The notes under the pieces: model-generated | What the model saw: the letters and a program-made list of their open reading frames with translations, nothing else | Database searches by the model: none | What the model was told of the DNA's origin: nothing | Shown here: piece by piece, positions 8,675-51,479 of the stretch | How positions within the stretch are numbered: position 1 is the first letter of the stretch | How the letters are laid out: each line of letters begins with the position of its first letter | Made by a program: the position numbers and the translations under genes | From: Candidatus Thiodiazotropha endolucinida | GTDB taxonomy: Bacteria > Pseudomonadota > Gammaproteobacteria > Chromatiales > Chromatiaceae | Length of the DNA stretch: 64,000 bases | NCBI RefSeq assembly: GCF_001715975.1 | Contig: NZ_MARB01000007.1 | Coordinates: forward strand, 124,001 to 188,000 | Reading direction: 5' to 3'

Positions 8675-8982
8675 AATTACCCGGTAAGTGCGAAGTTTAA
8701 TATACAAATTCAATTTTTGATGGCCAGTAATCTGACACGATGCAGCAGATTAGCCTGGTAAGGCTGGACCCCATCCTACGTAATGTGTGTGCTGCCAAGG
8801 GTGGTCTAAGGGGGGTAAGGCGGTATTAACTATGGAACAACAATATATGACGCTGCAGCGGATATGGTGTGATAGGCAGCATCTCCAGCTATGCACCCCG
8901 GTCGCTTACCGAGGCACATTTGCCCTTCAGTTTTAGTGAAGTTTGACCAGTCCGGATAGAAGGCGCTTGTGTCGCCTGGCCC
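8675..8982. other. Intergenic spacer without a clear gene
   Basis: About 300 bases between the trpD2 promoter and the next gene's stop. Two weak hairpins are visible: 8925-8941 (CTTCA/TGAAG) and 8961-8977 (AGGCG/CGCCT). The second could end the minus-strand gene at 8983. No RNA gene or supported reading frame was seen. Confidence 0.3.
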
Positions 8983-20098: not shown

Positions 20099-21139
20099 AT
20101 GATAAACGAGCATCAGGGTTATACAAGCAGAAGCGTAATGTCTTTATTTGCATTGTCATTGCTGTTTCTGTCTACAAATGTTAACGCGGGTGATGTCACG
20201 CTTAATGTAGTGGGACCTGATGGCGCAGCTGTGCCGGGTTTTCGCTATATCTTTCAGGAAGACACAACCTATGCTGTCGACCCCAATAATCCTGCGACGA
20301 CCGCTGATGGCCTCTTGTCATTGGGTTTTCATGCGAGTAACCATCCACCAGCCACTCGAGATGTGGCTGGTCAGGCTGAGAACCTGAGTGGCAATGAGGA
20401 TACCAGTTCAACCACAATCACTGGTCTGCCGGACACGCGCTACTATGTTTCAGTACTCCCTTATAGCGGTCACAGCATCAGTGGCGCCCCGATAGAAGTT
20501 GTACCAGGTGCAAATGAACTGACTGTGACAGTACAGCCCCATCCGATCCCCACAGCTCAGATCTCGATCTACCTGTTTGAGGACAACCATCCCATCAACG
20601 GTGTGCCCGATCTCCCTCAAGAGGCCAATGACGGCAGTGTTGACTGGACACAGTTCTCACTGTTTCTGGAAGAGCCGGGCGGTCGTTACGGCATCGCGGG
20701 CGGCCAGGTGATTCAGGATGCCTTCGGGAATCCGCTTGGCACCGTCTATGATCAGCACTGCCTTGCCGATGGATCGCCTGCGTACCTGCGTGATGGTGCC
20801 GGCAATATCGTGATCATTGGTGGTGAGCCAGTACTTTTAATCGATCACTTCTGCTTCGATGCCGAAGGTAATCCTATCGTGCTCGAGATGGGTGACGGCA
20901 CCATGCACCCAAACCCAGACGGCACTTTGACGGTAAAAAATATCGCCCCGGGTAAATACGGTGTTGTGATCATCCCACCCACCAATCCCGACGATAATAT
21001 CGGTTGGCAGCAGACCAGCACCATCGAAGGCAGCAAGGTCATCGATGCCTGGGTCAAGGCCAATGAACCGCCGGTCTTTGTCGAGTTCGGACTGCCGGGA
21101 CCCCATGTGTGTCGTCGGTTTTGTAAAAGCTACAGCTGA
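20099..21139 (+). CDS. N-terminal part of a giant secreted protein (before an apparent frameshift)
   Basis: 346 codons as they stand. The start has a GGAG site 8 bases upstream and a signal peptide (about 1-30, cleavage near NVNA-GD). The product contains beta-sandwich segments resembling transthyretin/SdrD-type repeats (for example AQISIYLFEDNHPINGV). The frame ends in a stop at 21137-21139, but the next frame (from 21105) continues the same kind of sequence without its own signal peptide or ribosome site. Removing one C from the CCCC at 21101-21104 joins both into one protein of about 2003 residues. The last 11 codons before this stop look like out-of-frame read-through. See the next entry. 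Confidence 0.7.
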   Translation: MINEHQGYTSRSVMSLFALSLLFLSTNVNAGDVTLNVVGPDGAAVPGFRYIFQEDTTYAVDPNNPATTADGLLSLGFHASNHPPATRDVAGQAENLSGNEDTSSTTITGLPDTRYYVSVLPYSGHSISGAPIEVVPGANELTVTVQPHPIPTAQISIYLFEDNHPINGVPDLPQEANDGSVDWTQFSLFLEEPGGRYGIAGGQVIQDAFGNPLGTVYDQHCLADGSPAYLRDGAGNIVIIGGEPVLLIDHFCFDAEGNPIVLEMGDGTMHPNPDGTLTVKNIAPGKYGVVIIPPTNPDDNIGWQQTSTIEGSKVIDAWVKANEPPVFVEFGLPGPHVCRRFCKSYS

Positions 21140-24100
21140 TGGCGGTATGCCAGGTGCGCCAGGTCCGCAACCGGGTGAGCAGATAGCTACCGTGAGCGGC
21201 ACTGTCACAGATATGCATATGTCGCGCGTCACACGCCAACCGACATTCGAGTTCTTTTCCGGCCGCCCGTTCCCGGGTTGCTGGGTTGGTATCAACCAAG
21301 TGGATGCGGCCGGTGCCCTGGGTCAGGGTATCGAAGCAGCCCCCTGTGATGGGGATAGCGGTTTCTCGTTTGATCTGCCTCCCGGCAGCTATCAGCTGGC
21401 GATCTGGGATGCAAACCTGGATGTGGTCTTCGCCGCAAACCCGTTCAGCGTGGATGCCACAGGTGGTACTTGTAATGGCGGCAATAGCTGTGCCTTCGGT
21501 GAAGTAGCCGTTTTCAATTGGTTTACCCGTCTGAACGCCGGCGTTTTCCTGGACGAAGACTTGGACGGTTTCTGGGATCAGGGCGAACCAGGGCTTGGCA
21601 ACGGTGAACGGGGTATCGGCCCCGAGAGCCAGGATGTGAGCCTGCGCTGGCGCGACGGTAGCGTCTATCAGAACTTTCCAACCGACCACGAGGGTCTTGC
21701 GCCATTCGACGAGGTCTTCCCCTTCTTCCACTGGCTGGTGGCTGAGGTCAGCTTTGCCAACAAGAAGGCGACCGGCGCCACTTTTGTGGTCGATGCGGGC
21801 GGTCCAGTGGATACCGCCAATGGTGATTTCCCCGGTTTTGGTGAATTGAATCCCCAACCTCAGTTCTGTACACCGGCGATTGCCGCAAATGCGGAAGATC
21901 CTAACTTTGGATGTACTCCAGGCGATGCGCTGATCAATCCGAACACCACTGACAACCTGTCGCGTACGGAAACCGGTGCGGTGCTGACCCAGGGCTTCCA
22001 GGGCTTCCTCGGCCAGACCAGCGTGATGCAGTTCGGTAAGGTGGATTACATCTCTATTACACCGCCCTACAATGATGGAACATTCCATCCGCCTGAGTTT
22101 GTTGGCGAGAATGGCGGTATCTCCGGCATGGTCTTCTATGCCACCACCCGTGCGGAAAACGAACCGCAATTCGCCGCCGCCGAGGAGTGGGAGCCGGGTG
22201 TACCCCGGGTTCAGTTGGCCCTCTATGCCGACGGTGACATCGACTGTCCCGCCCTCGCCGGCCAGGTGAATTGTGACATCGACTGGAATAACGATGGCAC
22301 ATTGGATCCCGATGATGGTGTGGTAGAAGATATTAATGGTGTGCCCGGTATTCAGTATGCCGATGTGGACAACTATCCGCTCGGTTTTGCCGAGGGTGCA
22401 GCACCCGGTCCGGAGGATATCGACAGAAACGGCAATGGCGCATTCGATCTGGGCGACGCCCTGCAAGTGACCTGGACCGACAGCTGGGACGATAGCCTGC
22501 CCGAAGGCTGTCAGGGCCTGAACAATATCCCACCTAGCCCCGCTTTCCCGGCAGGCATCCCCGTTGAGCCGCCCATCACTGATGAGCGCTGCTTCGACGG
22601 TCTGCGCAACTTCAATCAGGTCAGGCCTGGCGTCTTCGATGGCGGATTCGCCTTTGAAGAGTATGACATGGACTACCTGGGAAGCCTGGGTAACCAGAGT
22701 GGTAACGTCACCATCCTGAACAACTTCTATGCGGATCGAATTGCAGCCGTAAGCACGGTTGCCGCAGCAACCGGAAAGGCGCTTGAACTGCCCGAACAAT
22801 GGATTCTCCCCGGTGATTATATTGTCGAGATGGCGACACCTCCGGGTTATGAAAGCCTCAAGGAGGAGCATAAGAACGTCGATTTCGGTGACGAATATAC
22901 GCCATCACTGCAGGCACTGCCCGTGGCCTGTGTGGGTGACGACCGTACGGTGCCTCAGTACCTGACCATGGTGACCAGGGACGGCAGCGGTACCGATCCG
23001 GGTGACGGCAGCAATCTTGTGGATGCCGCACTGCTGGATGACGAGGGTGTGTTTGCACCGTTCGCCAATGAGACGCGTCGTAGCTGTGATCGCAAGCTGG
23101 TGCCGCTTTCATCCGGTCAGAATGCAGCCGCTGAGTTCTTCCTCATGACCCATGTGCCGCTTGCCGGCAATGTGTCAGGTGTCGTCCTCAACGACCTGGC
23201 CAACGAGTTCAATCCGAACTCCCCGGCCTTCGGCGAAAAGTTCGCGCCGCGTAACATACCGATCGCCTTCTACGACTGGAACGGCAACGAAGTCAATCGT
23301 ATCTATGCGGATCAGTACGGCCGCTACAACCTGATGGTGCCCTCGACCTCCACGGCGAATCTGGGGATTCCATCGGGCATGTCGCCCAACATGCTGGTCT
23401 CCTGTATGAACGATGCGGGCCCGATCGATAATCCCGCTTATTTGGTCGATGCCGATAATGACGGACTCGACGACAACACGGGTGCGCCCGCCAAGATCGT
23501 CGATCCGAATTTCAAGACCCAGTACAGCCAGTTCTGCTACACCTTCCAGTACATGCCCGGCGTGATCACCTATCTGGATACGCCTGTGGTACCGGTTGCC
23601 GCACATGCGGATAGGGAGACCTTCCCGCTGGATTGTGAGCAGACCGACAAAACGCCCATGATATCGTCCATCACCCGGACGGGCGGCCTGCCCGGTCCCT
23701 TCGGTCTGGCCGGCGATACCATTCGCATCAATTCAATGGGACTGGTGGATGTGCCCAATCCCTATTGGGATGGTGTGATACCTGCTGAGAAGCTGATAAC
23801 ACGTGACTACAGATTCAATCCAGGTGTTCCAGGTATGGAATCGCGGGCATTCCTCATCGATCTGGATGATCCAACAGTGCCGATCGAGCTCTCTTCCTAC
23901 AGCGCTCGAAATGAAAATTTTCTTGAAGGCACTATCCCCGCAGTCGGTCCAGGCGAGTATCAGGTCATGGTCTCCAATGGTGATGTCAGTTCACCGGTAG
24001 GTGTCACTCTGACTGTGGGTGTTGATGTGGCCGGTCTGGGCGAGAGTGCCCCCAGGGCCAATTACAGTGCAGCAAACCAGGCAGCCACCACGTCAGCGGT

Positions 24101-26111
24101 TTGGCGCGTACCAGGTGATTTCGCCACCATTCAGGAGGCGATTGGCGATCCGGTCAACAATCCAGCCGGACCTTCCGCCGCCGCGGGTGACCTGATTCTC
24201 GTTGCGCCGGGTGACTATGAAGAGATGGTGATCATGTGGAAACCGGTCAAGCTGCAAGGTTGGGGTGCCGGTGCGGTTACCCTGAATGCCAGACAGGTAC
24301 CCACCGAAAAGGTTGCCAACTGGCGTAATCTGGCTACCACGCTGGAGTCAAATGGCTCGATCTCACTCCTGCCGGGTCAGGCCCTGGCGCCTTTCGGATT
24401 CCCCGGCCTGGGTGCGCAACTCTTCCCGACGGAAGAGGGTGCAGGTATCTTCGTGGCCGGTACCAATAGCGGTGGCAACCGTTTCGGCCATCCCAGGAAT
24501 CGTGGTGCCCGTATCGATGGTTTCACCATCATCGGTGCCAGCACCGGCGGTGGCATCGTCGCCAACGGCTATAACCAGTGGTTGAATATCTCCAACAATA
24601 AGATTACCGCCAACTCCGGTTTCTACGGTGGCGGTATCCGTGTCGGTCATCCTCAGTTGACCCATGAGATCGAGACTGAAGACGATCCGGATTTCATTGA
24701 GGAGAATGACAACTATGCGGTAGGCACGCTGGTCTATACCGACAGCCGAAACGACCGCGTCAATATCCATCACAACCTGGTACAGAAGAATGGTGTACTG
24801 AGCGGTGCAGGTGCCGGTATTTCGCTGAATACAGGCACTGATGCCTACCGGGTGAGAAACAACTGGGTATGCGGTAACTTCGCTCAAGGAAGCGGCGCCG
24901 GTATCGCTCACCTGGGTCTCAACAGGGGCGGCATCATTGAGGACAATATGGTTATCTTCAATGAGTCCTTCCAGCAGACACCGGGAACCTCGCCGGATGG
25001 CGGCGGTATCTATATCGCCGGACAGCCCGCGCTGGTGCCTGAGGCAGAGACAGGGCTGATGTTGTCACCCGGTACCGGTAACGTGACCGTCGACGCCAAC
25101 ATCATCCGCGGCAACCTGGCGGGTGCCGGTGATGGCGGCGGTATCAGCATCACCAGCGTCAATGGACAGGATATCCCACAAAGTCGCTTTGCTGCAGATG
25201 GCGAAGAGAGCGATGAATGGATCAGAGGCCGCTGGTACGGCGTCAACCTGTTCAACAACATGGTCAATAACAACGTGGCCGGCGTAGCAGGTGGTGGTTT
25301 ATCGATACTCGACTCCCCGAAGGTTGTTATTCGCAACAACACGGTGGCGAGAAACGATTCGACCTCGACCGGTTCCCAGGCGTTTGCCGATCCTGCCAAT
25401 CCGAACGAGTCGCAACCGTTGCCGGCGGGTATCGTATCGCGGACCCATAGTAATGATATGGCGCAGGCCATGGCGCTCGCGATCGACTCCTATGATGAGG
25501 ATGACAATCCGGCGCCGGGTGCAATGACGCAGAACGCAACTTACAGCAACCCAACGTTGCGTGACACCATCGTCTACCACAACCGCTCGTTCTACTGGTC
25601 CAACAACGGCGATCCGACACAGCTCACAGGCGGTCTGCTGCCGGATTGTGCCGGTTGTGCGCTGACGGACTACGAAGCCTATACCAATGATATGGGTGTG
25701 GTAACGGGTGTCACCGAGAGCGCGACGGATCTGCTGAGACCTCGTTACTGCCTGCTGCAGGATGGTACCGAGTACGACACAGTCAGCGGTACAAACGAGC
25801 TGATTACCGGTGATGTGGGATTTGTCAATCCGGTCTACAACGAAGCGACCGACAGTCTGCTGTTCCCAGAGTTCAAGGTGATACAGGCGGCCGGGGCCTT
25901 CGACGAGGGTGGCAACTTCCTGCAGGTCAGTTTCGGTCCTGTCACGCTGGTTGATTCCCTCGGTGCGCTTTATGACTATCACCTGGCGGCAGGTAATCAG
26001 GCTGACAACGAGGGTGGTCCCACCGGTGGCAGCCGTACACAGGTCGATTTCGACAATGATCCAAGACCCGCCACGGGTTCTGATATCGGCGCCGATGAAC
26101 TGGCGCCTTAG
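21105..26111 (+). CDS. Giant secreted beta-helix protein, C-terminal part (after an apparent frameshift)
   Basis: About 1668 residues in the frame following the CCCC run at 21101-21104; the frame is open from 21045 on. Visible parts: several SdrD-B/carboxypeptidase-regulatory-like beta repeats with calcium-loop sequences (DEDLDGFWD, DADNDGLDD, DRNGNGAFD). An IPT-like segment lies near residue 950. A right-handed beta-helix (about 1000-1450) has repeated N-x-I-x-x-N and GGG(I/L) rungs (GGGIRVG, GAGISLN, GGGIYIAG, GGGISIT, GGGLSIL). It ends in a DIGADE motif typical of 'choice-of-anchor Q' proteins. It looks like a surface scaffold. It lies 140 bp before the first cupredoxin gene and is probably co-transcribed. 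Confidence 0.75.
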   Translation: MCVVGFVKATADGGMPGAPGPQPGEQIATVSGTVTDMHMSRVTRQPTFEFFSGRPFPGCWVGINQVDAAGALGQGIEAAPCDGDSGFSFDLPPGSYQLAIWDANLDVVFAANPFSVDATGGTCNGGNSCAFGEVAVFNWFTRLNAGVFLDEDLDGFWDQGEPGLGNGERGIGPESQDVSLRWRDGSVYQNFPTDHEGLAPFDEVFPFFHWLVAEVSFANKKATGATFVVDAGGPVDTANGDFPGFGELNPQPQFCTPAIAANAEDPNFGCTPGDALINPNTTDNLSRTETGAVLTQGFQGFLGQTSVMQFGKVDYISITPPYNDGTFHPPEFVGENGGISGMVFYATTRAENEPQFAAAEEWEPGVPRVQLALYADGDIDCPALAGQVNCDIDWNNDGTLDPDDGVVEDINGVPGIQYADVDNYPLGFAEGAAPGPEDIDRNGNGAFDLGDALQVTWTDSWDDSLPEGCQGLNNIPPSPAFPAGIPVEPPITDERCFDGLRNFNQVRPGVFDGGFAFEEYDMDYLGSLGNQSGNVTILNNFYADRIAAVSTVAAATGKALELPEQWILPGDYIVEMATPPGYESLKEEHKNVDFGDEYTPSLQALPVACVGDDRTVPQYLTMVTRDGSGTDPGDGSNLVDAALLDDEGVFAPFANETRRSCDRKLVPLSSGQNAAAEFFLMTHVPLAGNVSGVVLNDLANEFNPNSPAFGEKFAPRNIPIAFYDWNGNEVNRIYADQYGRYNLMVPSTSTANLGIPSGMSPNMLVSCMNDAGPIDNPAYLVDADNDGLDDNTGAPAKIVDPNFKTQYSQFCYTFQYMPGVITYLDTPVVPVAAHADRETFPLDCEQTDKTPMISSITRTGGLPGPFGLAGDTIRINSMGLVDVPNPYWDGVIPAEKLITRDYRFNPGVPGMESRAFLIDLDDPTVPIELSSYSARNENFLEGTIPAVGPGEYQVMVSNGDVSSPVGVTLTVGVDVAGLGESAPRANYSAANQAATTSAVWRVPGDFATIQEAIGDPVNNPAGPSAAAGDLILVAPGDYEEMVIMWKPVKLQGWGAGAVTLNARQVPTEKVANWRNLATTLESNGSISLLPGQALAPFGFPGLGAQLFPTEEGAGIFVAGTNSGGNRFGHPRNRGARIDGFTIIGASTGGGIVANGYNQWLNISNNKITANSGFYGGGIRVGHPQLTHEIETEDDPDFIEENDNYAVGTLVYTDSRNDRVNIHHNLVQKNGVLSGAGAGISLNTGTDAYRVRNNWVCGNFAQGSGAGIAHLGLNRGGIIEDNMVIFNESFQQTPGTSPDGGGIYIAGQPALVPEAETGLMLSPGTGNVTVDANIIRGNLAGAGDGGGISITSVNGQDIPQSRFAADGEESDEWIRGRWYGVNLFNNMVNNNVAGVAGGGLSILDSPKVVIRNNTVARNDSTSTGSQAFADPANPNESQPLPAGIVSRTHSNDMAQAMALAIDSYDEDDNPAPGAMTQNATYSNPTLRDTIVYHNRSFYWSNNGDPTQLTGGLLPDCAGCALTDYEAYTNDMGVVTGVTESATDLLRPRYCLLQDGTEYDTVSGTNELITGDVGFVNPVYNEATDSLLFPEFKVIQAAGAFDEGGNFLQVSFGPVTLVDSLGALYDYHLAAGNQADNEGGPTGGSRTQVDFDNDPRPATGSDIGADELAP

Positions 26112-26250: not shown

Positions 26251-27606
26251 ATGAAAACTTATCGTAAAAACATACTTGCAGGGGCAATTGCCCTCACGTT
26301 GTTGGGGTTCGTTGGTACCGCCAGTGCCGTGGTCAATGTTCAGTGTCCAGGCGATTTAGACGGGGACGCAACTGTCGATGTTGGACCTGGCCATCCCGAT
26401 TACAATGAGAATGCCAAATGTATGCATCTGATCGCCGGTGACAGCTTTGCAATCATGTCAGACGGCAATCCCTTGTATACCTTCGGCTTTGGTGACAAGA
26501 CAGGGAACGGCAACACGCCCGACACGGTGATCGGCAATGGTATCTTGGCGGCCGAGTGGCCCGGACCCACCATCGAACTGGATCAAGGGCAGGAGTTCTT
26601 TCTCAATCTGACCAACGTGGGTACAGTGATCCGACCCGATCTGTTCGATCCGCATACGGTTCATTTCCATGGCTTCCCCAATGCCTCAGCGGCTTTCGAC
26701 GGTGTACCCGAGGTTTCGATCTCCATCAATATGGGGTCGACACTGACCTATTACTACAACATCGTCGAGCCCGGTACCTATATCTATCACTGCCACGTGG
26801 AAGCCACTGAGCACATGGAGATGGGTATGTTGGCCAATCTCTACGTGCATCCGATTCAGGACGAGATCGGCTGTTTCGATATGGTCGATAATCCGGGTAC
26901 CGCGGAATATGACCCGGAACCTGTACCGAACGGTGGTTGTGAGCCGGGAACACGGAAAGATCCAGGCAGCACCGGCCCGACAGGTTATGTCTACAACGAT
27001 AACGACGGCTCCACGGCTTGGGATGTGGAAGTGGCGCTGCAGTTCTCAAGCTTCGATGGCAACTTCCATGATGCCAGTCTTTTCGTTCAGCCGCTGCCGT
27101 TTGCGGATCTTGAGGGTAATTATCCTCAGATCAACGGTCGAGGCTATCCGGATACGGTAAGCCCAGGCGATTTACCGGCACCTACCGATAACCTAACGCC
27201 GGTGGCAGGTCATCCTGCAGGTAAAGTGACCGGCAATCCCGGTGAAATCCTGAACAATGGCGATCCCACTCAGACGATGGATTCCGTCATTGAGGTCAAT
27301 CAGGGCGAGCGTCTCTTGCTGCGTCTGTCGAATGTGGGCCTTGACCGCTTCTGGACCATCACCGCCATGGGTCTGAAGATGAAGATCGTTGGTACCGGTG
27401 CACGTCAGATGCGCGGAAGTGATGGCAAAAATCTCTACCGTGAAACGGCATCACTCAACTTCGGTGGCGGTGAGACCACCGATGTCATCATCGATACAGC
27501 CGATGTGGCACCTGGCACCTATTTCCTCCATGCCACCGAAGTGCATCAGATGAGTAATGCGACACAGCTGGATGGCGGCATGATAACCGAGATTGTTGTC
27601 AACTGA
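26251..27606 (+). CDS. Multicopper oxidase chain A: type 1 site plus half trinuclear site
   Basis: 451 residues with GAGGAG nine bases before the ATG and a signal peptide (cleavage near ASA-VV). It has a dockerin-like calcium loop (DLDGDATVD, 36-43), then two cupredoxin domains. Domain 1 carries HTVHFHG (H135, H138, H140) and HCHVEATEHMEMGM (H180, C181, H182, H188, M193). That gives a full type 1 copper set (H135, C181, H188, M193) and four trinuclear-site histidines. The HCH-x5-H-x4-M spacing is that of MofA/OmpB-type oxidases, not of laccases (x3). Domain 2 (about 290-451) has lost the ligands apart from HATEVHQM. The other four histidines needed for a trinuclear site are absent, but chain B has them. 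Confidence 0.85.
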   Translation: MKTYRKNILAGAIALTLLGFVGTASAVVNVQCPGDLDGDATVDVGPGHPDYNENAKCMHLIAGDSFAIMSDGNPLYTFGFGDKTGNGNTPDTVIGNGILAAEWPGPTIELDQGQEFFLNLTNVGTVIRPDLFDPHTVHFHGFPNASAAFDGVPEVSISINMGSTLTYYYNIVEPGTYIYHCHVEATEHMEMGMLANLYVHPIQDEIGCFDMVDNPGTAEYDPEPVPNGGCEPGTRKDPGSTGPTGYVYNDNDGSTAWDVEVALQFSSFDGNFHDASLFVQPLPFADLEGNYPQINGRGYPDTVSPGDLPAPTDNLTPVAGHPAGKVTGNPGEILNNGDPTQTMDSVIEVNQGERLLLRLSNVGLDRFWTITAMGLKMKIVGTGARQMRGSDGKNLYRETASLNFGGGETTDVIIDTADVAPGTYFLHATEVHQMSNATQLDGGMITEIVVN

Positions 27607-27633
27607 GGCTGGCCGAACTAGGAGATGAGACTA

Positions 27634-29103
27634 ATGAAGAGCATATTCAAAAAACCTGGGCGGTTCATCAGCTTCCTTATGCTGGGCCTTGCAGGTGTCT
27701 TCAGTGCGCCGTTAACCCATGCGGCCCACGACATTCGCGGTATAACGGGTCCCACTTTCAACCTGTATGCCTATCCCTTCAATATGAACCTGCCTGAAGG
27801 CACCAGTTTATACATGTGGGGCTTTGGTGATATGGATGGCGGTGCAAACGCCACTCATGCGGCGGGTGATGGTTATGCACTACCGCAATACCCCGCACCC
27901 ACCCTGATTGTTACGGAAGGGGATAGCGTAACCATCAATATCGCCAATTATGGGGTTCCGGAGCCGGTCGGTATCGTTGTAACAGGTCATAACGCGAGTG
28001 CGGCCTGTGCACCCTTTCCCGGCGGTGGTCCAAGCACCTGCACAACAGGACTCGTGACCTCGTCCGCTAATATCAATGAGGCGGTGACATACACCTTTAC
28101 CGCAGGAACCCCAGGCACCTATATCTATCACAGCCTGGATGGCGACAATCCCGGACTGCATGCGGAAATGGGGCTGTTGGGGGTGATGATTGTGCGTCCG
28201 GCCGATTTTGGTGCAGGCCCCAATCGCACGGCCTACGGGGTAGATACCGGTACACAGTACGATCAGGAGAATCTCTATCTCATGACCGAGGTTGATCCTG
28301 AAATCCACCTGCAGATGGAGCGTGGGCACAGAAGTCATTTCACCCACTCCGACCGGCATGCCAAGATCTGGTTTATCAATGGCAGGGTCTTTCCGGATCT
28401 GTTCCAGGGGGATTACAACCCGCTCTTTCCACATCAACCTTATGAGTCGCTCGCAATCGCTCATCCGGGTGACATCGTATTGGTGCGTAATATCAATGCG
28501 GGACACGATTCCCACCCCATGCACTACCATGGCGAGAACCTCACCTTTATCGGTCGCGATGGGAAGATGTTGAGTTCAGACGGCATCGTTTCCGATCTGG
28601 GACGTTCCGACAATACCATCAACTCAGCGCCGAAACAGACTGTTGATGCACTCTGGACCTGGACCGGCAAGGGACTGAATTGGGATGTCTATGGCCCGAT
28701 TAGTAACAGCTGCACTGATGCAAATAACGACATGGCAGATGATGCCACGGGTGCACTGTGCAATGATCCCACTTGTAATGATGTTGTAAATAATCGTACC
28801 GGTGATGCAGGTTCTGACGGATTTGATGATGACAATTATCAATACTGTCCTGACCATGGCAAACCACTACCTGTGACACTGCCAGGCGTGGGCGATCTTT
28901 CACTCGGTGGCTGGTGGAGTGGTAGCCCATTCCTCGGCGATACAGGTGACCTTCCACCCGGTGAGGGCGGTCTGAATCCCTTTGGCGGCTACTTCCTGGT
29001 CTGGCACTCCCATGCGGAAAAAGAGCTGACCACATTCGACATCTTCCCCGGCGGCAGCTTGGGCTCAGTGGTGATTGTGCCTCCCGGCACACCCATCGAA
29101 TAA
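27634..29103 (+). CDS. Multicopper oxidase chain B: complementary half trinuclear site
   Basis: 489 residues. The start at 27634 is set by AGGAG at 27620-27624; an ATG at 27625 lies directly on that site. A signal peptide ends near THA-AH. It shares the N-terminal LYMWGFGD motif with chain A. Domain 1 keeps only remnants (VTGHNAS, YIYHSLDG). Domain 2 has HPMHYHG (H294, H297, H299) and WHSHAEKE (H458, S459, H460). The cysteine of the type 1 site is replaced by serine and the downstream His/Met are missing. So this chain cannot hold a type 1 copper but offers the four histidines missing in chain A. A cysteine-bearing, Asp/Asn-rich insert (about 357-410) precedes the last strand block. Confidence 0.83.
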   Translation: MKSIFKKPGRFISFLMLGLAGVFSAPLTHAAHDIRGITGPTFNLYAYPFNMNLPEGTSLYMWGFGDMDGGANATHAAGDGYALPQYPAPTLIVTEGDSVTINIANYGVPEPVGIVVTGHNASAACAPFPGGGPSTCTTGLVTSSANINEAVTYTFTAGTPGTYIYHSLDGDNPGLHAEMGLLGVMIVRPADFGAGPNRTAYGVDTGTQYDQENLYLMTEVDPEIHLQMERGHRSHFTHSDRHAKIWFINGRVFPDLFQGDYNPLFPHQPYESLAIAHPGDIVLVRNINAGHDSHPMHYHGENLTFIGRDGKMLSSDGIVSDLGRSDNTINSAPKQTVDALWTWTGKGLNWDVYGPISNSCTDANNDMADDATGALCNDPTCNDVVNNRTGDAGSDGFDDDNYQYCPDHGKPLPVTLPGVGDLSLGGWWSGSPFLGDTGDLPPGEGGLNPFGGYFLVWHSHAEKELTTFDIFPGGSLGSVVIVPPGTPIE

Positions 29104-29121
29104 GCGTGGGAGGGCACGAAC

Positions 29122-32100
29122 ATGAAAAGGTCAACAATCATGAAGCTTAGAATCAAACCCATCGTCGCCGCCTGTGCATTAGCCATGGCAGCCGGACAAG
29201 CAGGTGCTATCGACTACACCCTGGCCACAAAGGCGTACTCCAAGACTATGCCGGATGGAAGCGTTGTTCCCATGTGGGGTTATGTCATCGATCCGGATAA
29301 CGATAGTTCCGGCAGAGGTGATTGTTATGAAACAACACCAGCGCCTGCGCGACGCACCTGTGTCGACAGTCTGCCTGATCCTGTGGCGCCCGGCCCGAGG
29401 CTGGATATACCGCCGACCGATACGGCATTGCGGATTTATTTGACTAATACATTGCCTGAGCCGACATCCATTGTGATCCCAGGGCAGGAGTTGCCTTACT
29501 CAGCGGCCGATAACGGTCCCACTTGGGACGGTCCGTTCGGTGGCAATGCCATTACCGGGGGACGCCCAGCCGGCGATACAACCTTGAAGATGCGCTCTTA
29601 TGGCCGTGAAGCGAATCGCAATGGCGGTAGACGGGCGTATGTCTGGAACAATAACCGGAACAATCCTATAACGAATTCGGGCAGTTTCATTTACCACACC
29701 GGCACACATCCCCAAAAGCAACTCTACATGGGGCTCTTTGGCATGGTCACGCGTGACTCCGTTGCAGGCGAGGTCTATCCCGGCGTCACTTACAACAGCG
29801 ATACCACACTTTTCTACAGCGATATCGATCCTGAGTTCAACAAATCCGTGGTCGCACCCTATGATCCGGCTTACGCGGCATACCCGCCGTTGGAGACAGC
29901 GATCGAGCGTCATCCCACCTGGTTTTTGATCAATGGCGAGCCTTATGATCCGACCGGGACGATTAACGCCGTGGGTGCCAATACCATTACCGGTATAGAC
30001 GTCAATCAAAGCAATTTGATGCGTTTCGCCAGTGCGGCAACCGAAAATCATGTCCCGGTCTTCCAGGGGCTCTACGGCACAATCCATGGTGAGGACGGCA
30101 TGCAGTATATGTGGCAGGCCGGTGTGAGCGGCGCCGCAGCTACTGAAACGGCTGCACCCATTGAGCAGTACTCGATCGGCTTGCCGCCGCTGAAGACAAA
30201 GGATGTGATTGTCACTCCGGCTGTGCAGGGGGTCTATTCCATCTATGACGGCAACGGTTATATGACCAACCCCACCGCCAACGAAGCCACGGGCGCTGAG
30301 GATACCGTCGGCGGTATGTTCAGGAAACTGGGTGTTGCACCCGGCACCAACCAGGCGCCGGTGGCCGTGGCTGATCAGTTTACCGTTGAATACCCTGAAC
30401 TCCTGAGCAGTGATACTGAAGCGACACCTGTTGCATTTCTCTTGGATGTCATCGCCAATGACAGTGACATCAATAACGATCCGCTGACCCTTGCGTCTAC
30501 TCTAACGCCTAACCAGCAATACGGCGACGTTGCGATAACCATCGATGCGTTCTGTAATGCTGGCGATACATCTTGTTCGGTAGAGTACGGCTATACAGGA
30601 CCTGCGGGCGGTACCGAGACCTTTCATGCAACACCAGCAACCATTGCTTCTACCAACTTTGATTACGATGTGACTGACGGGAGTCTGACAAGCGGTTTGG
30701 CAACCGTCACCCTGGATTATCTGCGCAATGAGGCACCCACAGCGGCTGACCATGCGTTAGTGACGGATGCTGCGACAGAGTTGCTTTTCAACGCTTTGGA
30801 TGGCGCAGTCAATAATGAGCCGGGTGATGTACTGAACTTCTCGTATTCACCCCCATTTGATCCTGTAACCGATTTGGATCCTGCGACAGAGGGAGCGCTT
30901 GTATGCGCAGCGAACGGTGAATGTACCTTTACGCCACCTACGGACGGTGTGCCGGGACCTGACTCAGTCGTGGTTACTTTTGACTATGTAGCCCTCGACG
31001 ATATAAATACAGTCGGCAACCAGACGGGTGTTACAGCGTATGACGACAAGATCACAGGAACCGTTACCATTACCGTTGATCCGGTAAGTACCGAAGCACC
31101 TGAAGTCATCGACGACAACTATATGGCCATTGTGGATACTGACTTGGTGGTGGCTGTCGATCAGGGTGTCCTGTCGAACGATACCGAACCGCAGGGGCAG
31201 CCGATGACTGCGGCCTTTGACGGTCCCACACCGCCCGGTACGACTACGGAAGGCGGCACCGTGGTGTTGAATGCAGACGGCTCTTTCACTTATACACCGC
31301 CTGCAGGATTCTCCGGCGCGGATACCTTCACTTACATCGCCAGCGATGACAGTGCGCCTACCCCCAACGAGAGCCTACCGGCCACGGTGACCATCACGGT
31401 TGGCAATGAGGCATCCGTGGCTGTTGCCGACAGTTACAGCATGACCGAAAGCAGCATTCTCAATGAAGCCGCTCCCGGTGTGTTGGTTAACGACACGGAT
31501 GTGGATGGCCAGGCCCTTACAGCGAGTCTGGTGGCCGGTAGTGGTCCCAGCTGCGGTACCCTGACGCTGAATTCGGACGGCTCCTTTACTTACGAGCCCC
31601 AGATTGGCTGGAACAGCACACTGACGGGTGTTTGTGATCCGGGTACCGTGGACGGTTCGGATACCTTCAGCTATGTCGCCAATGATGGTCTGGTGGACAG
31701 TGCTGCGGTTAGCGTCAACATCACGGTCAATCCGCAAACCACGGCCACGGCAGTCAACGATACCTTTATCCTTGATGCGCCGTCGGTGACAGAACTCACC
31801 GCAGAAAACGGTGAATTGGTCAGTACCACTTACGTCACGGCCAGCGCACTGGATAACGATCTGGGAACCGGAACCAATCCGACTGCTACCGAAGTGAATG
31901 ATCCTGATAATCTCTCTCCTGAGATTGCGGCATCGGGTGAAGTCACTCTGGTAATCGAGGATATGGCAATGGGCACCATCGGTACACTGGAGTATCAGTT
32001 CACCAATGACGGTGGCAACACCAGTAATGTCGCCCAGGTCAGCCTGGTACGCTATCTCGGCGTGAAGAAGTCGGAGTTCAATTTGCGGGAAGATGGCGGT

Positions 32101-32442
32101 CTCGCCGGAAATCCGGACAACGACGACTGGCGTATCACCGGTAATGTCGATCCCACGGTGATTCCGCCGGGTAGTTCGATCTTCGCCTTTATCATCAGGC
32201 AGGGTGTCACCGATCCTATTCCGATCAATACCCCGGCCGACATCAACCCGAATAATGATATGGGCACGGTCTTCAATGTGGACAACTGGAGAATCCACAT
32301 CGATAACGTCGGCAGCACCGGACCACGCGGTGATATCGATCAGGCCAACGACAGGTTGCGCATAGAGGCCCACGTCGACGATGGAGTTGGTGGTACTATT
32401 ATCTACACCTATGACAATGTACCGATTCATGTACAACCATAA
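29122..32442 (+). CDS. Chain C: copper-depleted cupredoxin pair with cadherin/Ig-like repeats
   Basis: 1106 residues; GGAGGG lies before ATG 29122 (a second ATG at 29140 is possible). Signal peptide to about residue 29. It starts with the same PDGSVVPMWGY motif as chains A and B. The positions of the copper motifs hold IPGQELPYS and YHTGTHPQKQLYMGL, so only H192 and H196 remain. Residues about 405-900 are cadherin/VCBS-like beta repeats (VLSNDTEPQGQ, DGSFTYTPPAGFSGADTFTY, NDTDVDGQALTA). The last about 130 residues are a separate unknown domain (YLGVKKSEFNLRED...). It probably acts as a structural or surface-binding subunit. A strong terminator follows. Confidence 0.8.
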   Translation: MKRSTIMKLRIKPIVAACALAMAAGQAGAIDYTLATKAYSKTMPDGSVVPMWGYVIDPDNDSSGRGDCYETTPAPARRTCVDSLPDPVAPGPRLDIPPTDTALRIYLTNTLPEPTSIVIPGQELPYSAADNGPTWDGPFGGNAITGGRPAGDTTLKMRSYGREANRNGGRRAYVWNNNRNNPITNSGSFIYHTGTHPQKQLYMGLFGMVTRDSVAGEVYPGVTYNSDTTLFYSDIDPEFNKSVVAPYDPAYAAYPPLETAIERHPTWFLINGEPYDPTGTINAVGANTITGIDVNQSNLMRFASAATENHVPVFQGLYGTIHGEDGMQYMWQAGVSGAAATETAAPIEQYSIGLPPLKTKDVIVTPAVQGVYSIYDGNGYMTNPTANEATGAEDTVGGMFRKLGVAPGTNQAPVAVADQFTVEYPELLSSDTEATPVAFLLDVIANDSDINNDPLTLASTLTPNQQYGDVAITIDAFCNAGDTSCSVEYGYTGPAGGTETFHATPATIASTNFDYDVTDGSLTSGLATVTLDYLRNEAPTAADHALVTDAATELLFNALDGAVNNEPGDVLNFSYSPPFDPVTDLDPATEGALVCAANGECTFTPPTDGVPGPDSVVVTFDYVALDDINTVGNQTGVTAYDDKITGTVTITVDPVSTEAPEVIDDNYMAIVDTDLVVAVDQGVLSNDTEPQGQPMTAAFDGPTPPGTTTEGGTVVLNADGSFTYTPPAGFSGADTFTYIASDDSAPTPNESLPATVTITVGNEASVAVADSYSMTESSILNEAAPGVLVNDTDVDGQALTASLVAGSGPSCGTLTLNSDGSFTYEPQIGWNSTLTGVCDPGTVDGSDTFSYVANDGLVDSAAVSVNITVNPQTTATAVNDTFILDAPSVTELTAENGELVSTTYVTASALDNDLGTGTNPTATEVNDPDNLSPEIAASGEVTLVIEDMAMGTIGTLEYQFTNDGGNTSNVAQVSLVRYLGVKKSEFNLREDGGLAGNPDNDDWRITGNVDPTVIPPGSSIFAFIIRQGVTDPIPINTPADINPNNDMGTVFNVDNWRIHIDNVGSTGPRGDIDQANDRLRIEAHVDDGVGGTIIYTYDNVPIHVQP

Positions 32443-32516: not shown

Positions 32517-33113
32517 ATGAAAGTTGACGAGAGAAAAAGCAGCGCCCAAACACGGGATGAAGAGTTTTTACCCCAGGGCAACCCGATTATTTTGATTTTC
32601 GTGTTGTTACTGTGCCTCACTATTCTGTTTATGCTGACTTCTGCGATAGCCAACGGTGCTGAAAAAATGTTGCCGAATAAGGCAGCCGGACAAACAGCTG
32701 TCGCAAAATGGAAACCACCCGTGGCGCATAAGATCATTCAGCCTGAAATGGTTTCCTCTGATCTGGCGAATGAGATCGCCGACAAGTGGGGTATCAGATT
32801 GATCAGCTTGAGATTGACTGCCGCAGGCTACATGATCGATTTTCGATTTCGTGTTTTGAATGTGGAGAAATCAAAGAACTTTTTCGATCAAAGGGTCAAA
32901 CCACACCTGGTGGTTGAGCGTTCCAATGCTAAACTACCAATACCCATGGCGGCCAAGGTGGGCGCGTTCAGAACGACCAATCGGGGCCAGAACATCAAAC
33001 CTAACAGAACATACTATATGGTATTCGGGAATCCGGATGCCCATGTGAAGTCAGGTGAGAAAGTGACCATGGTTATCGGCGACTTCAAGGCCGAACATTT
33101 GATCGTTCACTAA
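32517..33113 (+). CDS. Membrane-anchored conserved protein of unknown function
   Basis: 198 residues. A charged cytoplasmic start is followed by one membrane helix (about 24-45) and a periplasmic domain. The core has GIRLISLRLTAAGYMIDFRFRV, RVKPHLVVE, and FRTTNRG...RTYYMVFGNP, ending VTMVIGDFKAEHLIVH. The beta-rich end looks like a small Ig-like fold. I recall similar proteins next to OmpB/MofA-type oxidase genes but cannot verify that here. It starts 27 bases after the terminator, so a promoter must lie in or near 32440-32515, or read-through occurs. Confidence 0.7.
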   Translation: MKVDERKSSAQTRDEEFLPQGNPIILIFVLLLCLTILFMLTSAIANGAEKMLPNKAAGQTAVAKWKPPVAHKIIQPEMVSSDLANEIADKWGIRLISLRLTAAGYMIDFRFRVLNVEKSKNFFDQRVKPHLVVERSNAKLPIPMAAKVGAFRTTNRGQNIKPNRTYYMVFGNPDAHVKSGEKVTMVIGDFKAEHLIVH

Positions 33114-33133: not shown

Positions 33134-36100
33134 ATGCGTAATATTAAATCTCTCCTTCGCCTTCTAATCCTGCTTATGGCAGGCGTGTCGCTGCAGAGCA
33201 ATGCGGCGGTCACTGTCTACTGCTGCGACGCAAACGCAGAGGCGCAGTACATTCAGGACCTGGCTGCCCTGCAGTCTGTCACGGTGGATTTAACCGGTGA
33301 AAGCTTTGAAGGTGATGCCTGGACGAGCTCACGTAATACAACAGTGTTCAGTGTGACCAACCAGAACCTGACATGGGGGGGCAGTTCAACCGGTGTTGCA
33401 GGCATCCAAACCAGTATGGGCGGTGGTGATGTGCATGAGGGTGAATATCTGATGTTCGCCGTTGACGATACGAGCACCCATCTGACTCCCGATAAGATCA
33501 CCCTGACGGCCAATGGCATTACTCTGTATGGTGTCGGCGGATGGTTCAGAAGTTCCAATGGTGCAAAACTCGCATTCACCACGAATGGCGATGTGGTCGA
33601 TTTTACAGGTGCGCAAGCCACAGTCTTCGATTGGAAGTTTCTCGGTTTTATCGACGATGGAGGATTCAGCACACTGTTGGTGGAAACAGCCGATGAAGTA
33701 GGCAATGAAGTCAAGACCTTCTTTTCGGATGACTTTACCATTGCAGCCCAAGCCGGCGCTTTTCCCGGTCAGGACCTGCAATTCAGCAGTGCCAACTATT
33801 CGGTCAATGAGAATGCGGGGTCAGTTGCCGTCACGGTGAGCCGCAGCGGCGGAACAACAGGTGCGCTGTCCATAGATTATGCAACCACGGCTGACGGCAC
33901 TGCGACAGCCGGTCAGGACTTTACAGCAGTTTCAGGTACACTTGACTTCGCCGATGGGGAGACGAGTAAACAGATCACCATAAATATACTGGACGATGCC
34001 GTCTTCGAGGGCGATGAGACAGTAGGGCTGTTGCTCACCGGAACCGATGTCGGTGTCCTGAATAATGCCACCCTGACTATTATCGAGAATGACGTGCGCC
34101 CTGCAGGAAGCGTCGAGTTCAGTGGCAGCAGTTATCGCGTGAACGAAGATGCCGGTACGCTGTCGGTCACGATACAGCGTAGTGGAGGCAGCGAAGGAAG
34201 CGGTACAATCGATTATGCGATCAGTGACGGCACGGCGATCGGCGGCAGCGACTACAACGCTACTTCCGGTACTTTGGCATTCATTGACGGCCAGGTTAGC
34301 GGCACTTTTGATATCGCCATTACAGACGACGCCCTGCAAGAGGGTACGGAGTCGATTGTTCTCAATTTAAGCAATCCGGTCTCAGTGATGCTGGGTGATC
34401 GCGATATTGCCGAAGTCTCCATTATTGACAACGAAGCGTCACCGGCCATGGGGAGTATCCAGTTCAGCGGATCTACCTATAGTGTCGCCGAGAACGGCTC
34501 GGAGATAGCGTTACCGGTCGTTCGAATTAGCGGCAGCATGGGGGCTGTAAGTGTTGTCTGTACAACCTCCGATTCCAGTGCCACCGCCGGCAATGACTAT
34601 ACGGCAACACAGAATACGGTAAGTTTTGCCAATGGTGAAGTTATTCAAAACTGCCGCATACCCATCGTAGACGACAGTAGCTATGAAAATGATGAAACCT
34701 TACTGGTGACTCTCAGCTCTCCCACAAATGGTGCGGTACTGGGAACCACTTCATCCACGACAGTCACAATCGAAGACAATGATCCGGTCCCTGCGGCCGG
34801 GAGCCTTCAGTTCGACCAGACAAGTTACCAGCTGACAGAGGGTGGTTCGACAGCCAGCATTACGGTTTCCCGGAGTGGCGGCAGTAGCGGATCGGTCAAC
34901 GTTGATTACGCCACTGTGGATGGGACTGCCACAGCCGGTAGCGACTACACATCGGCCAGTGGCACTATCAATTTCGCCGCTGGCGTCACCAGTGTCAGTT
35001 TCCAGGTTACGCTCTTGGACGATGCGATTTACGAAGGTGATGAAACTGTTTCGCTTGTTTTAAGCAATCCTACCGGGGGTGCTGTGACCGGTTCGGCAGA
35101 CACAGCACAACTGACCATCCTCGATAATGAATCGGCTCCCGCTACGGGTGCCCTGGTCTTCACCGCGAGTGAATATTTTGCAGATGAGTTGGATGGCAGT
35201 ATTACCGTGAGCGTTGAGCGTCAAGGCGGCAGTACGGGTGCTGCACAAGTCAACTATATCACCAGCGATGGTACAGCGATTGCAGGTGCGGACTATGCTG
35301 TGGCTAGTGGCACTCTGGCATTCGCTGACGGTGAGGTTTCACAAAGTTTCGAGATTTTCATCAATGATGATGCCTTTTTTGAAGGAACCGAAAACCTGAG
35401 TCTTCAGCTCTCAGACCCATTTGGAGTAACTCTCGGTGACCCAGCATCATCTGTTATCACAATTGCCGATGACGACGATCCACCCGCAGCGGGTGCACTC
35501 GACTTTTCGACGAATAGTTATAGCGTTGATGAAACCGGCACCAGTATTAGCGTTACAGTAACCCGGAGTGGTGGTACGAGCGGTGCAATCTCTGTTGATT
35601 ATGCAACACTGGATGACAGCGCCACGGCATCGTCCGATTATGTTTTTGCTACGGGTACCGTAAACTTTGCCAATGGTGAGTCGGGTAGCAAAACATTCGA
35701 GGTCACAATTGTCGATGACAGTCTGTTAGAGCAGGACGAGCGTATCCGTTTGGTGCTCGCCAATGTGCAGGGTGGAGCAGTGCTGGGTGCCTTGAGTGAG
35801 TCCTTTATTACTATATCGGACGACGAGGCACAGTCCGCCTCTGCGATACTGGGCTTTTCGACAGGTTCCCTGTCCGCCAATGAAACTGCCGGTAGTGTGA
35901 ATATCACCATCACACGCAGTGTCACGGTAAGCGGTGAAATTTCGGTTGATTTGTCAGCAAGCTCAAGTGATGCAGTTGCGGGTACAGACTACAACGTAAC
36001 CACCGGAACCGTGCGGTTTGCCAATGGTGAGACGGAGAAGACCATCACTGTTGAAATTCTGGACAATACTGTCACAGATGGGAACAGAACGATTACTTTT

Positions 36101-36313
36101 GCACTGGCCAATGCCATTGGTACGGCTGTCATTGATAGTAACAGCGGTACTTTGACCCTGACAATTATTGATGATGAATCAGATTCAGGCGGTGGCGGCG
36201 GTGGTGGCAGCATGGGATCATTTCTGATGTTGTTGATGCTGTGTGCAATATACTACCTTCGGTTACGGGGATTCCGTGTTTGCACGGCATGTTCATCAGG
36301 CAGGAATAAGTAA
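33134..36313 (+). CDS. Secreted seven-Calx-beta protein with a GlyGly-CTERM-like tail
   Basis: 1059 residues. Signal peptide (cleavage near SNA-AV), an N-terminal domain of about 190 residues with no known likeness, then seven Calx-beta domains of about 110 residues each (from about 215 to 1015). Each has the pattern (Y/S)xVxE...VxVxRSGG...DYA...GTLxFxxGE...DDxxxEGDE. These bind Ca2+ between neighbouring domains. The end is a Gly run (SGGGGGGGSMG), a hydrophobic segment (FLMLLMLCAIYYL) and arginines: the layout of GlyGly-CTERM sorting signals cut by rhombosortase in type II secretion substrates. The tail after the arginines is longer than usual. It follows the previous gene by 20 bp. Confidence 0.85.
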   Translation: MRNIKSLLRLLILLMAGVSLQSNAAVTVYCCDANAEAQYIQDLAALQSVTVDLTGESFEGDAWTSSRNTTVFSVTNQNLTWGGSSTGVAGIQTSMGGGDVHEGEYLMFAVDDTSTHLTPDKITLTANGITLYGVGGWFRSSNGAKLAFTTNGDVVDFTGAQATVFDWKFLGFIDDGGFSTLLVETADEVGNEVKTFFSDDFTIAAQAGAFPGQDLQFSSANYSVNENAGSVAVTVSRSGGTTGALSIDYATTADGTATAGQDFTAVSGTLDFADGETSKQITINILDDAVFEGDETVGLLLTGTDVGVLNNATLTIIENDVRPAGSVEFSGSSYRVNEDAGTLSVTIQRSGGSEGSGTIDYAISDGTAIGGSDYNATSGTLAFIDGQVSGTFDIAITDDALQEGTESIVLNLSNPVSVMLGDRDIAEVSIIDNEASPAMGSIQFSGSTYSVAENGSEIALPVVRISGSMGAVSVVCTTSDSSATAGNDYTATQNTVSFANGEVIQNCRIPIVDDSSYENDETLLVTLSSPTNGAVLGTTSSTTVTIEDNDPVPAAGSLQFDQTSYQLTEGGSTASITVSRSGGSSGSVNVDYATVDGTATAGSDYTSASGTINFAAGVTSVSFQVTLLDDAIYEGDETVSLVLSNPTGGAVTGSADTAQLTILDNESAPATGALVFTASEYFADELDGSITVSVERQGGSTGAAQVNYITSDGTAIAGADYAVASGTLAFADGEVSQSFEIFINDDAFFEGTENLSLQLSDPFGVTLGDPASSVITIADDDDPPAAGALDFSTNSYSVDETGTSISVTVTRSGGTSGAISVDYATLDDSATASSDYVFATGTVNFANGESGSKTFEVTIVDDSLLEQDERIRLVLANVQGGAVLGALSESFITISDDEAQSASAILGFSTGSLSANETAGSVNITITRSVTVSGEISVDLSASSSDAVAGTDYNVTTGTVRFANGETEKTITVEILDNTVTDGNRTITFALANAIGTAVIDSNSGTLTLTIIDDESDSGGGGGGGSMGSFLMLLMLCAIYYLRLRGFRVCTACSSGRNK

Positions 36314-36350: not shown

Positions 36351-37142
36351 ATGTTTAACGATGTACGGGATACAGCAACACTACAGTGGTACAAACGAAT
36401 CATGCCAGCGGTATTATTGCTCCCGATGATATCGTTGATCTCGTTCAACACTCATGCTGATGAACTGCCAAGTATTGCAAAACGGGCCGAAACGGGAGAG
36501 GGCTTTACCCCCCCCTTCAAACTGGATTGCATCACGCGGCCGGGAAAAAGCAAAACCCTGGGTGAACGCTTTGAAATGCTGGCCAGTTCGGGTGATCAAG
36601 GACACGATGAGCATGCCCACCATAGAAGGATGATGATGAGCAATGATTATCAGCTGCATACAGCTGACTATACGATTCCCGATGTACAGCTGATTTCCCA
36701 TCGTGGTGAAAAAGGACGTCTCCCGGAATTGCTTGATACGGATAAGCCGGTGATGTTGAATTTCATCTTCACGACCTGCACCACGATCTGTCCTGTGTTA
36801 TCCGCAAGTTTTCATCAAGTTCAAGAGATCATGGGTGATGAGAGTGATTCCATTTCGATGATCTCGATTACCATCGATCCAGACTATGATACGCCAGAGC
36901 AACTGATGAAATATGCACGGAAGTTCAAAGCGGGTAACCAGTGGCAGTTCTACACCGGTACGTATAACGACGTCGTGAAGGTTGAAAAAGCGTTCGATAT
37001 CTTTCGTGGCTCCAAAATGAACCACGAACCCATTACTCTCATACGTAAACAAAACGAACAATCCTGGGTCAGAATAAGCGGGCTTGCAAGCGCAGAAGAT
37101 ATCGTAAAGGAATACCGTAAAACAATTACAGCAGGAAAGTAA
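36351..37142 (+). CDS. SCO1/SenC-type copper chaperone
   Basis: 263 residues with a GGAG site. An N-terminal export signal or anchor (about 17-34) precedes a thioredoxin-like fold. The copper motif CTTIC (C-x3-C in FTTCTTICPVLS) is intact, as is the third ligand histidine in NHEPITLIRK and the TIDPDYDTPEQL segment. A His/Met-rich stretch (GHDEHAHHRRMMM) before the fold may also bind copper. SCO proteins insert copper into oxidases; here it sits in the set of genes downstream of a copper oxidase, which suggests it loads that enzyme. It overlaps the next gene by one base (TAATG). Confidence 0.92.
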   Translation: MFNDVRDTATLQWYKRIMPAVLLLPMISLISFNTHADELPSIAKRAETGEGFTPPFKLDCITRPGKSKTLGERFEMLASSGDQGHDEHAHHRRMMMSNDYQLHTADYTIPDVQLISHRGEKGRLPELLDTDKPVMLNFIFTTCTTICPVLSASFHQVQEIMGDESDSISMISITIDPDYDTPEQLMKYARKFKAGNQWQFYTGTYNDVVKVEKAFDIFRGSKMNHEPITLIRKQNEQSWVRISGLASAEDIVKEYRKTITAGK

Positions 37143-43171: not shown

Positions 43172-43677
43172 GTTTGCCAGTCGCCTGATGGCGCGTTTAT
43201 TTCCCCAGTATGGGAATCGATGGGTAAAATATGAATAAAATCATCTGATTATCAACTATATTCCTTAATACCTCATACTTTAATGCGTGTTACTACTACC
43301 TGTTGATTAGGTATGTTACTACCATGACTGAACAGTTGAGGCAGTAGAATCCTAAATTTTTTTTGTGTCGGAAACATAGACCAAACACACTTAAAACGCT
43401 TCTTGGAAAGCTGATTTGGCTACTATAGGATTGATTATCCTATTCATTTAACAGGTAGTTCATACACTTTGAGCACGATCTGGAGGCTGGGTGATAGAGA
43501 CAGTAGAACCCATGGTAGGGTTTTTATCCATTAAAGGTATGAAATCACCCCATGCAGAAATACATCCTCCCATCAATCTCATTAATCTTGTAAATCTGCT
43601 GTTATTGTATGAAGCCATATTCAGTCCTATGTGCCTCGATTAGGATATGGAAGTTTTGTGGAACTACTGGAAATCAG
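43172..43677. other. Divergent spacer between the S8 protease and the type II secretion operon
   Basis: About 500 bases, AT-rich, no supported gene. A 7-bp inverted repeat ATAGGAT/ATCCTAT lies at 43425-43443. A small hairpin ACCC/GGGT followed by five T (about 43508-43524) could be a weak attenuator for the gsp transcript. An in-frame upstream extension of gspD to 43609 exists but lacks a signal peptide and is not favoured. Confidence 0.35.
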
Positions 43678-45903: not shown

Positions 45904-46007
45904 TCGACAAAGAACTGGTGACTCATGCTTTTTCCACCTGGGAGTGCTGAACGGCATTGACCGACAGGCATATTGAGTCCAACCAGCCACCTGAGAGGTC
46001 ATGCGTT

Positions 46008-47753: not shown

Positions 47754-47755
47754 GC

Positions 47756-48976: not shown

Positions 48977-48983
48977 GGCAGGA

Positions 48984-49490
48984 ATGAACGCGAAATTCAG
49001 TGACACGCAGACATCCGGCAAGGGTTTCACCCTGATCGAAGTCATGTTGGCACTGGTGATATTGGCAATGCTGGTCAGCCTGACACCACCACTGTTCGAG
49101 AGGGCATTCCCTTCGCTCAAACTCAAGGCCGCTACGCGGGATCTGGCCCAGGAGATCCGTTATATCCAGCAGACTGCAATCATTACCGGTGTGCCCTCGA
49201 AGGTGCAGTTCGACCTCCACAACAATGCCTACCAAAGTGATCACGTCAACAGTGGTGAAGTACGACAACTGCCCGATGGGTTACAATTTGCTCAGAAAGA
49301 ATCTGACATAGGGATAGATGGAGCTCCGATTCTGGTATTCGAATTCTTTCCGGATGGCAGCTCGACTGGAGGTATTTTGATTCTCGATAACGGCGGACAA
49401 CGCTTCGCCATTGCTGTGGACTGGCTGACAAGCCGGGTCCGGGTCTTAGATCCCGAAGAGCTTAAAGCGAATGCCCCATACCAAGTCTGA
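48984..49490 (+). CDS. gspH: GspH, minor pseudopilin
   Basis: 168 residues from ATG 48984 (GAGG six bases upstream). Prepilin leader of 14 residues cut at KG/FTLIEVMLALVIL. The globular part fits GspH rather than GspG: it lacks the GspG calcium-site end and is longer after the helix. It overlaps gspI by 20 bp. Confidence 0.85.
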   Translation: MNAKFSDTQTSGKGFTLIEVMLALVILAMLVSLTPPLFERAFPSLKLKAATRDLAQEIRYIQQTAIITGVPSKVQFDLHNNAYQSDHVNSGEVRQLPDGLQFAQKESDIGIDGAPILVFEFFPDGSSTGGILILDNGGQRFAIAVDWLTSRVRVLDPEELKANAPYQV

Positions 49491-51453: not shown

Positions 51454-51479
51454 GCAACAAAACCCGTTAAAATTATCCC

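Follow-up and report, generated by a model that had tools for sequence, protein, structure and literature searches.

Copper nitrite reductases of the NirK kind are trimers with inter-subunit copper. They carry Asp and Ala at the second positions of their HxH motifs and have no full HxH pairs. The proteins 3g5w (Nitrosomonas europaea), 2zwn (from a metagenome) and 3gdc are, we assume, two-domain multicopper oxidases of type C. Two-domain oxidases form trimers whose trinuclear copper cluster takes its ligands from domain 1 of one monomer and from domain 2 of its neighbour; those of type C have their type 1 copper in domain 1 (PMC13151041). In six-domain oxidases the type 1 copper sits in even-numbered domains and the cluster lies between domains 1 and 6 or domains 2 and 3; in the bacterial ones domains 2 and 3 flank the cluster, with type 1 copper in domain 2 (PMC3600357). 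The iodide oxidase (IOX) of Iodidimonas and Roseovarius is secreted and is thought to combine at least two proteins, IoxA and IoxC, in a complex (PMC9415286). Here we analyse a stretch of 64,000 nucleotides from Candidatus Thiodiazotropha endolucinida (contig NZ_MARB01000007.1; hereafter the window), which hosts three adjacent genes, A, B and C (Table 1). The ligands of a trinuclear cluster are divided between A and B. We propose that A, B and C are secreted two-domain cupredoxins which probably assemble into a multicopper oxidase of unlike subunits. The most likely form of this hetero-oligomer is a 1:1:1 ring whose single active site would lie between domain 1 of A and domain 2 of B (A1:B2).

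An earlier inspection of this DNA, the sequence-only reading, had described the three genes and complementary ligand halves on A and B, and both descriptions hold. All three genes are where it had placed them on the plus strand, with spacers of 18 bases each between A and B and between B and C. Chain A has a type 1 site and two of the four HxH motifs of a trinuclear cluster, all in domain 1, and its domain 2 is without ligand pairs. Chain B has the remaining two HxH motifs, in domain 2, and its domain 1 is without ligand pairs. Domain 1 of A, with its HCHVEATEHMEMGM motif, aligns with domain 1 of 3g5w and 2zwn, all ligand residues included. The HPxHxHG motif of B aligns with domain 2 of 3g5w (14.1 bits) and of 2zwn (12.8 bits), scores that are weak alone, as is the 1.3 bits of the WHSH...PGG segment of B against FHDH...PGG in domain 2 of 2zwn. 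These alignments support the site that had been proposed at the A-B interface. The residue numbers first given for A were right, and those for B were about three too low (the correct residues are H297, H300, H302, H461 and H463).

Pfam recognises Cu-oxidase_3 and Cu-oxidase in chain A, and Cu-oxidase_3 and Cu-oxidase_2 in chain B, all above cut-off; both chains thus have the cupredoxin domains, matching Cu-oxidase, of the multicopper oxidase superfamily. In chain C it finds cadherin and Big_9 repeats, with Cu-oxidase_3 below threshold only. The earlier assignment of two cupredoxin domains to each chain stands, and the two of C are degenerate. Chain C is about 330 amino acids long in other loci, and owes its far greater length in the window to the cadherin-like repeats that come after the degenerate domains. 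A start motif said to be common to all three chains is present in B (MWGF) and C (MWGY); A has YTFGF, without the Trp. By eye, the N-termini of all three read as putative signal peptides. No NCBIfam family exceeded its cut-off in the eight proteins tested.

The four HxH motifs and type 1 site that characterise a multicopper oxidase are found only in A and B together. Chain A is like the type C oxidases in its two cupredoxin domains, its type 1 copper in domain 1 and the positions of its cluster residues. However, those enzymes are trimers of one complete chain, whereas here the halves are on different genes and the third chain has no sites. In the subset of rows aligned at the ligand columns, both domains' cluster ligands occur together in 0/21 A rows and 0/21 B rows: each chain has its own pairs in 21/21 rows and its partner's in 0/21, and C has none in 19.

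The conservation of these residues was read from an alignment of 98 rows. Genome contigs were scanned with a 13-row B alignment, which gave 154 relatives, and the best 80 were kept as loci. Matches of some kind to A were found in 36 of 146 family genomes, and 17 loci drawn from these carry A adjoining B. The window, these 17 family loci and the best 80 scanned loci make up the 98 rows. The A ligands are present in every one of the 96 rows that cover them; the two deviating rows are L082, a 142-residue remnant at a contig end, and L068, in which the match to A is actually its B. The five B residues are invariant (Table 1). This conservation is far above chance. Further histidines are also conserved, in A (H59 in 87/98 rows, H273 in 96/98) and in B (H228 in 96, H411 in 97). 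Since H135 and H188 belong to the type 1 copper, neither chain attains the eight histidines of the cluster even with these, as the sequence-only reading had maintained.

The layout is conserved in distantly related bacteria and is not local to the window's genome. By NCBI rank the best 80 loci comprise 36 from Pseudomonadota, 11 from Thermodesulfobacteriota, nine from Myxococcota (at least one of them a metagenome-assembled genome named Deltaproteobacteria), five each from Nitrospirota and Acidobacteriota, two from Planctomycetota and 12 to which no phylum rank is given. Distinct open reading frames (ORFs) for A, B and C, in this order on a single strand and at a median distance of 16, are present in 78 of these loci. 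Cultured strains that have the three genes include Desulfoferrobacter suflitae (L122) and Amphritea atlantica (L102). The exceptions among the 80 are L068, where A is off the contig, and L089, which has an N gap. An ORF of 893 amino acids in L089 was considered as an A-B fusion and ruled out, as a 10-N gap at 1183-1192 spans the end of A. Three divergent A-B-C triples (L170, L171 and L172) have the type 1 motif HCHITPPEHLQMGM and divide the ligands between A and B in the same way. In L056, from the Lamellibrachia barhami endosymbiont, an additional, truncated B (8765-9205) stands between A and the complete B. Among 369 class genomes, A (E <= 1e-20) was found in 10 and B (E <= 2e-70) in the same 10, neither ever alone.

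The search of the class genomes also matched adjoining chains of about 340 amino acids, encoded by compact gene pairs that we call B'-A'. We examined 18 adjacent full pairs (L041, L042 and L153-L168). In 17 of these, A' has the domain 1 HxH pairs with the type 1 site HCHxxxxxHxEMGM, and B' has the domain 2 pairs; the partner's pairs are missing at the ligand columns in 17/17 A' and 17/17 B'. In a further pair, L169, the stretch ends within A', and B' is fused to a repeat region. In profile searches of the 369 genomes, 21 of the 23 with either type have strong matches to both (E <= 1e-54), in one case (G181) on different contigs. The exceptions are G469, which has B' alone, and G460, which has A' alone and with two TGA codons in frame; in these the matches begin 293 and 95 bases, respectively, from the first base of the contig, on the side where the partner is expected.

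Do A and B share a site at all? Chain A could be an electron-transfer or copper-holding protein that works through its type 1 site, with the histidines of B serving copper storage or delivery and no cluster being formed. Half-sites can bind copper by themselves, an SCO-type copper gene lies nearby, and the oxidase activity of A-B is a predicted one. We nevertheless consider this rather unlikely, given that exactly four cluster positions in A and four in B are kept over several phyla with the opposite halves gone, that A and B co-occur strictly in the 369 genomes, and that the compact pairs show the same pattern.

A cluster shared between A and B would fit the following scheme. We show the pattern of ligands and how it is conserved, the joint occurrence of A and B and a predicted fold for every chain, and we infer the assembly, stoichiometry and activity of A-B-C. 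The ring would be shaped like the homotrimers of two-domain oxidases, and would thus place domain 1 of each subunit against domain 2 of the next. As A holds the domain 1 ligands and B the domain 2 ligands, only A1:B2 could unite all eight histidines; the B1:C2 and C1:A2 interfaces would be empty, which leaves a single working site. From the ligand comparison, an active site at A1:B2 is the natural and a well-supported reading. A substrate, for which a metal ion, iodide or a phenol are candidates, would reduce the type 1 copper in domain 1 of A (H135, C181, H188 and M193). From there the electrons would pass via the H180-C181-H182 strap to the trinuclear cluster, bound by H138, H140, H180 and H182 of A and H300, H302, H461 and H463 of B, where O2 would be reduced to water. 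Chain C, whose sites are all lost, would close the ring, and in the window may also add surface-binding repeats.

Structure predictions were made with multi-chain rows only. An alignment of 139 rows that mixed single-chain and read-through rows was discarded; its mean column identity was 14%, it had no invariant column, and it was taken to have A, B and C stacked upon each other. The read-through model of A-B-C reached a predicted template modelling score (pTM) of 0.85. The predicted fold of chain A matches two-domain oxidases and nitrite reductases.

A number of observations count against a shared site in an A-B-C ring. The window's A-B model is mediocre, with a predicted local distance difference test score (pLDDT) of 67.2 and a pTM of 0.69, and stretches near the second B motif fall below 50 pLDDT. 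The modelled chains are artificial read-throughs, with linkers that may themselves promote contact. The match to 6vow is known by its first and last aligned residues only, the aligned domains being deduced from these. Stray HxH strings occur at non-ligand columns of the wrong half in five A rows and three B rows (L068 and the gapped L089 not counted). The alignment rows are related to each other, and the 98 include 13 pairs that do not differ in the last 300 residues (e.g. L023/L059 and L026/L047), mostly from duplicated records, so that about 85 are distinct. Among the compact pairs, L168, at a contig end, consists of two A-type chains, each with a type 1 site. Finally, none of six ORFs tested next to the L041 and L042 pairs was recognised as a third such chain, which leaves the 1:1:1 stoichiometry unproven.

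Nitrite reductases match the fold about equally well, which is a further point against an oxidase. Chain A could be a NirK-type protein with a type 1 and one type 2 copper, and B an inactive relative. NirK has the same two-domain fold; however, A and B carry full HxH pairs and NirK does not. Chain A has His at both second HxH positions in 96/98 rows, where NirK has Asp and Ala, and B retains the full partner pairs in 98/98. Furthermore, the TIGR02376 equivalog gives 27.3 bits for A and 29.6 for B against a cut-off of 296.3. We find this alternative barely plausible.

Where did the divided oxidase come from? The sequence-only reading had derived it from a single six-domain oxidase of the MofA, OmpB, MnxG or ceruloplasmin kind, split into three genes. 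A, B and C do total six cupredoxin domains with at most one trinuclear site, like ceruloplasmin and MnxG, and the chains of factor V, ceruloplasmin, factor VIII and MnxG rank first in the sequential local alignment of Foldseek. However, ceruloplasmin and MnxG are single chains and A-B-C is three genes. Six-domain oxidases have, according to PMC3600357, type 1 copper in even-numbered domains, whereas A has it in the first domain of its chain, a polarity opposite to that of the bacterial members. Taken in gene order, the A-B-C model fails to superpose on either ceruloplasmin or MnxG (Foldseek TMq about 0.21). Homologues with A and B as one chain had been suggested as a check, and no genuine A-B fusion was found among the 80 loci. 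No six-domain chain stood among the best 50 matches of the VIA lists, an absence that proves nothing. With ceruloplasmin and MnxG as the six-domain oxidases compared, the type 1 polarity, the poor superposition, the lack of A-B fusions in the 80 loci and the weak grouping of A with a complete single chain (below) make a split six-domain ancestor very improbable.

A tree was built after masking the ligand columns, and in it a starred branch sets off each of the groups A, B, C, A' and B'. B pairs with C. Chain A pairs with L040, a complete single chain (83/94, without a star), in a part of the tree that also holds A' and B'. This topology favours the duplication of a complete two-domain ancestor with complementary loss later, and such a duplication fits better than the splitting of a six-domain chain. 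The approximately unbiased test does not reject a tree in which B and B' are kept together (p-AU 0.345), and such a tree is compatible with one common split of A-B and A'-B', so there may have been one split rather than two. L040 (6654-8129) is a single chain of 491 amino acids with all four copper motifs and the type 1 site. It is, with weak support, the nearest relative of A, and may be an IoxA-like chain.

Table 1. Features of the A-B-C locus (window positions) and of the compact pairs (positions within each locus)
Feature	Position	Strand	Remarks
Up	21045..26111	+	Very large protein upstream of A; relatives in 74/80 loci
Chain A	26251..27606	+	451 aa (amino acids); ORF, Pfam, 98-row alignment, predicted fold like that of two-domain oxidases and nitrite reductases
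A motif HTVHFH	26653..26670	+	H135 (type 1), H138 and H140 (cluster); 96/98 rows, exceptions L068 and L082
A motif HCHVEATEHMEMGM	26788..26829	+	H180 (97/98 rows) and H182 (cluster); C181, H188 and M193 (type 1); 96/98 rows except H180
Chain B	27625..29103	+	492 aa; ORF, Pfam, alignment
B motif HPMHYH	28513..28530	+	H297, H300, H302; cluster ligands H300 and H302; 98/98 rows
B motif HSH	29005..29013	+	Cluster ligands H461 and H463; Ser462 at the type 1 Cys position; 98/98 rows
Chain C	29122..32442	+	1106 aa; two cupredoxin domains without any ligand pair, then cadherin-like repeats
D	32517..33113	+	198 aa, 3' of C; relatives in 66/80 loci; no Pfam match over cut-off
SCO1/SenC-like copper-delivery protein	36351..37142	+	PF02630, 1.5e-19; relatives in 30/80 loci within the DNA examined
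Type II secretion cluster	43609-53716		Downstream; GspD, E, F, N-methylation-motif proteins, K, PilN-like, M, C
Compact pairs B'-A'	L041 4862-6875; L042 7521-9657; L153-L167		Complementary half-site loss

The Up gene of the window consists of two overlapping frames, 20099-21139 and 21045-26111, and in the near relatives L023 and L024 it is a single open frame of about 2000 amino acids; the split frame in the window is a frameshift or sequencing error. Up lies at most 700 bases from A in 68 of the 74 loci that have it. The Up of L100 has beta-helix and SdrD_B matches above the Pfam cut-off, which the window's own Up lacks. Up and A share one reading frame in L086, L111 and L121, none of which has N gaps there, and in G454, where the open frame around A (C1 3557517-3558824) spans 2371 amino acids. 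These single frames suggest that the oxidase is carried by a large surface-type protein. The D protein has, by eye, one putative hydrophobic segment.

In the IOX genomes, SCO1/SenC genes are within the cluster and gsp genes beside it (PMC9415286). The window is alike in having an SCO1/SenC gene and a type II secretion cluster. It is unlike IOX, which we compare by its description only, in that IoxA has all four copper-binding regions and A and B have two each. The type II secretion system is ruled out as a constant neighbour in general, as GspD or GspE relatives were found in just 13/80 loci within the DNA examined. Two Calx-beta repeat proteins are encoded close to the SCO and sensor genes, at 33134-36313 and 40238-43171; the opposite strand carries one of them, which has a subtilase domain.

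It seems reasonably likely that these genes represent a widespread, unrecognised class of oxidase with a trinuclear cluster built by two polypeptides. The class would include the Up-A-B-C-D operon of several phyla and the compact B'-A' pairs of Gammaproteobacteria, perhaps from two independent splits, in each of which a homotrimeric type C ancestor was duplicated and its copies then lost complementary half-sites. Among the open-licence papers listed by searches aimed at such a report, no title or abstract describes a hetero-oligomeric oxidase whose cluster ligands are split between genes. If true, this would be a clear case of a symmetric homo-oligomer becoming an obligate hetero-oligomer by the loss of half a site in each copy. 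Such site loss is assumed in the evolution of ceruloplasmin and other six-domain oxidases, and is known there within one fused chain only. It would also mean that annotating single proteins, in which A or B alone resembles a partial laccase, misses an oxidase in lineages that cycle sulfur, sulfate and nitrite.
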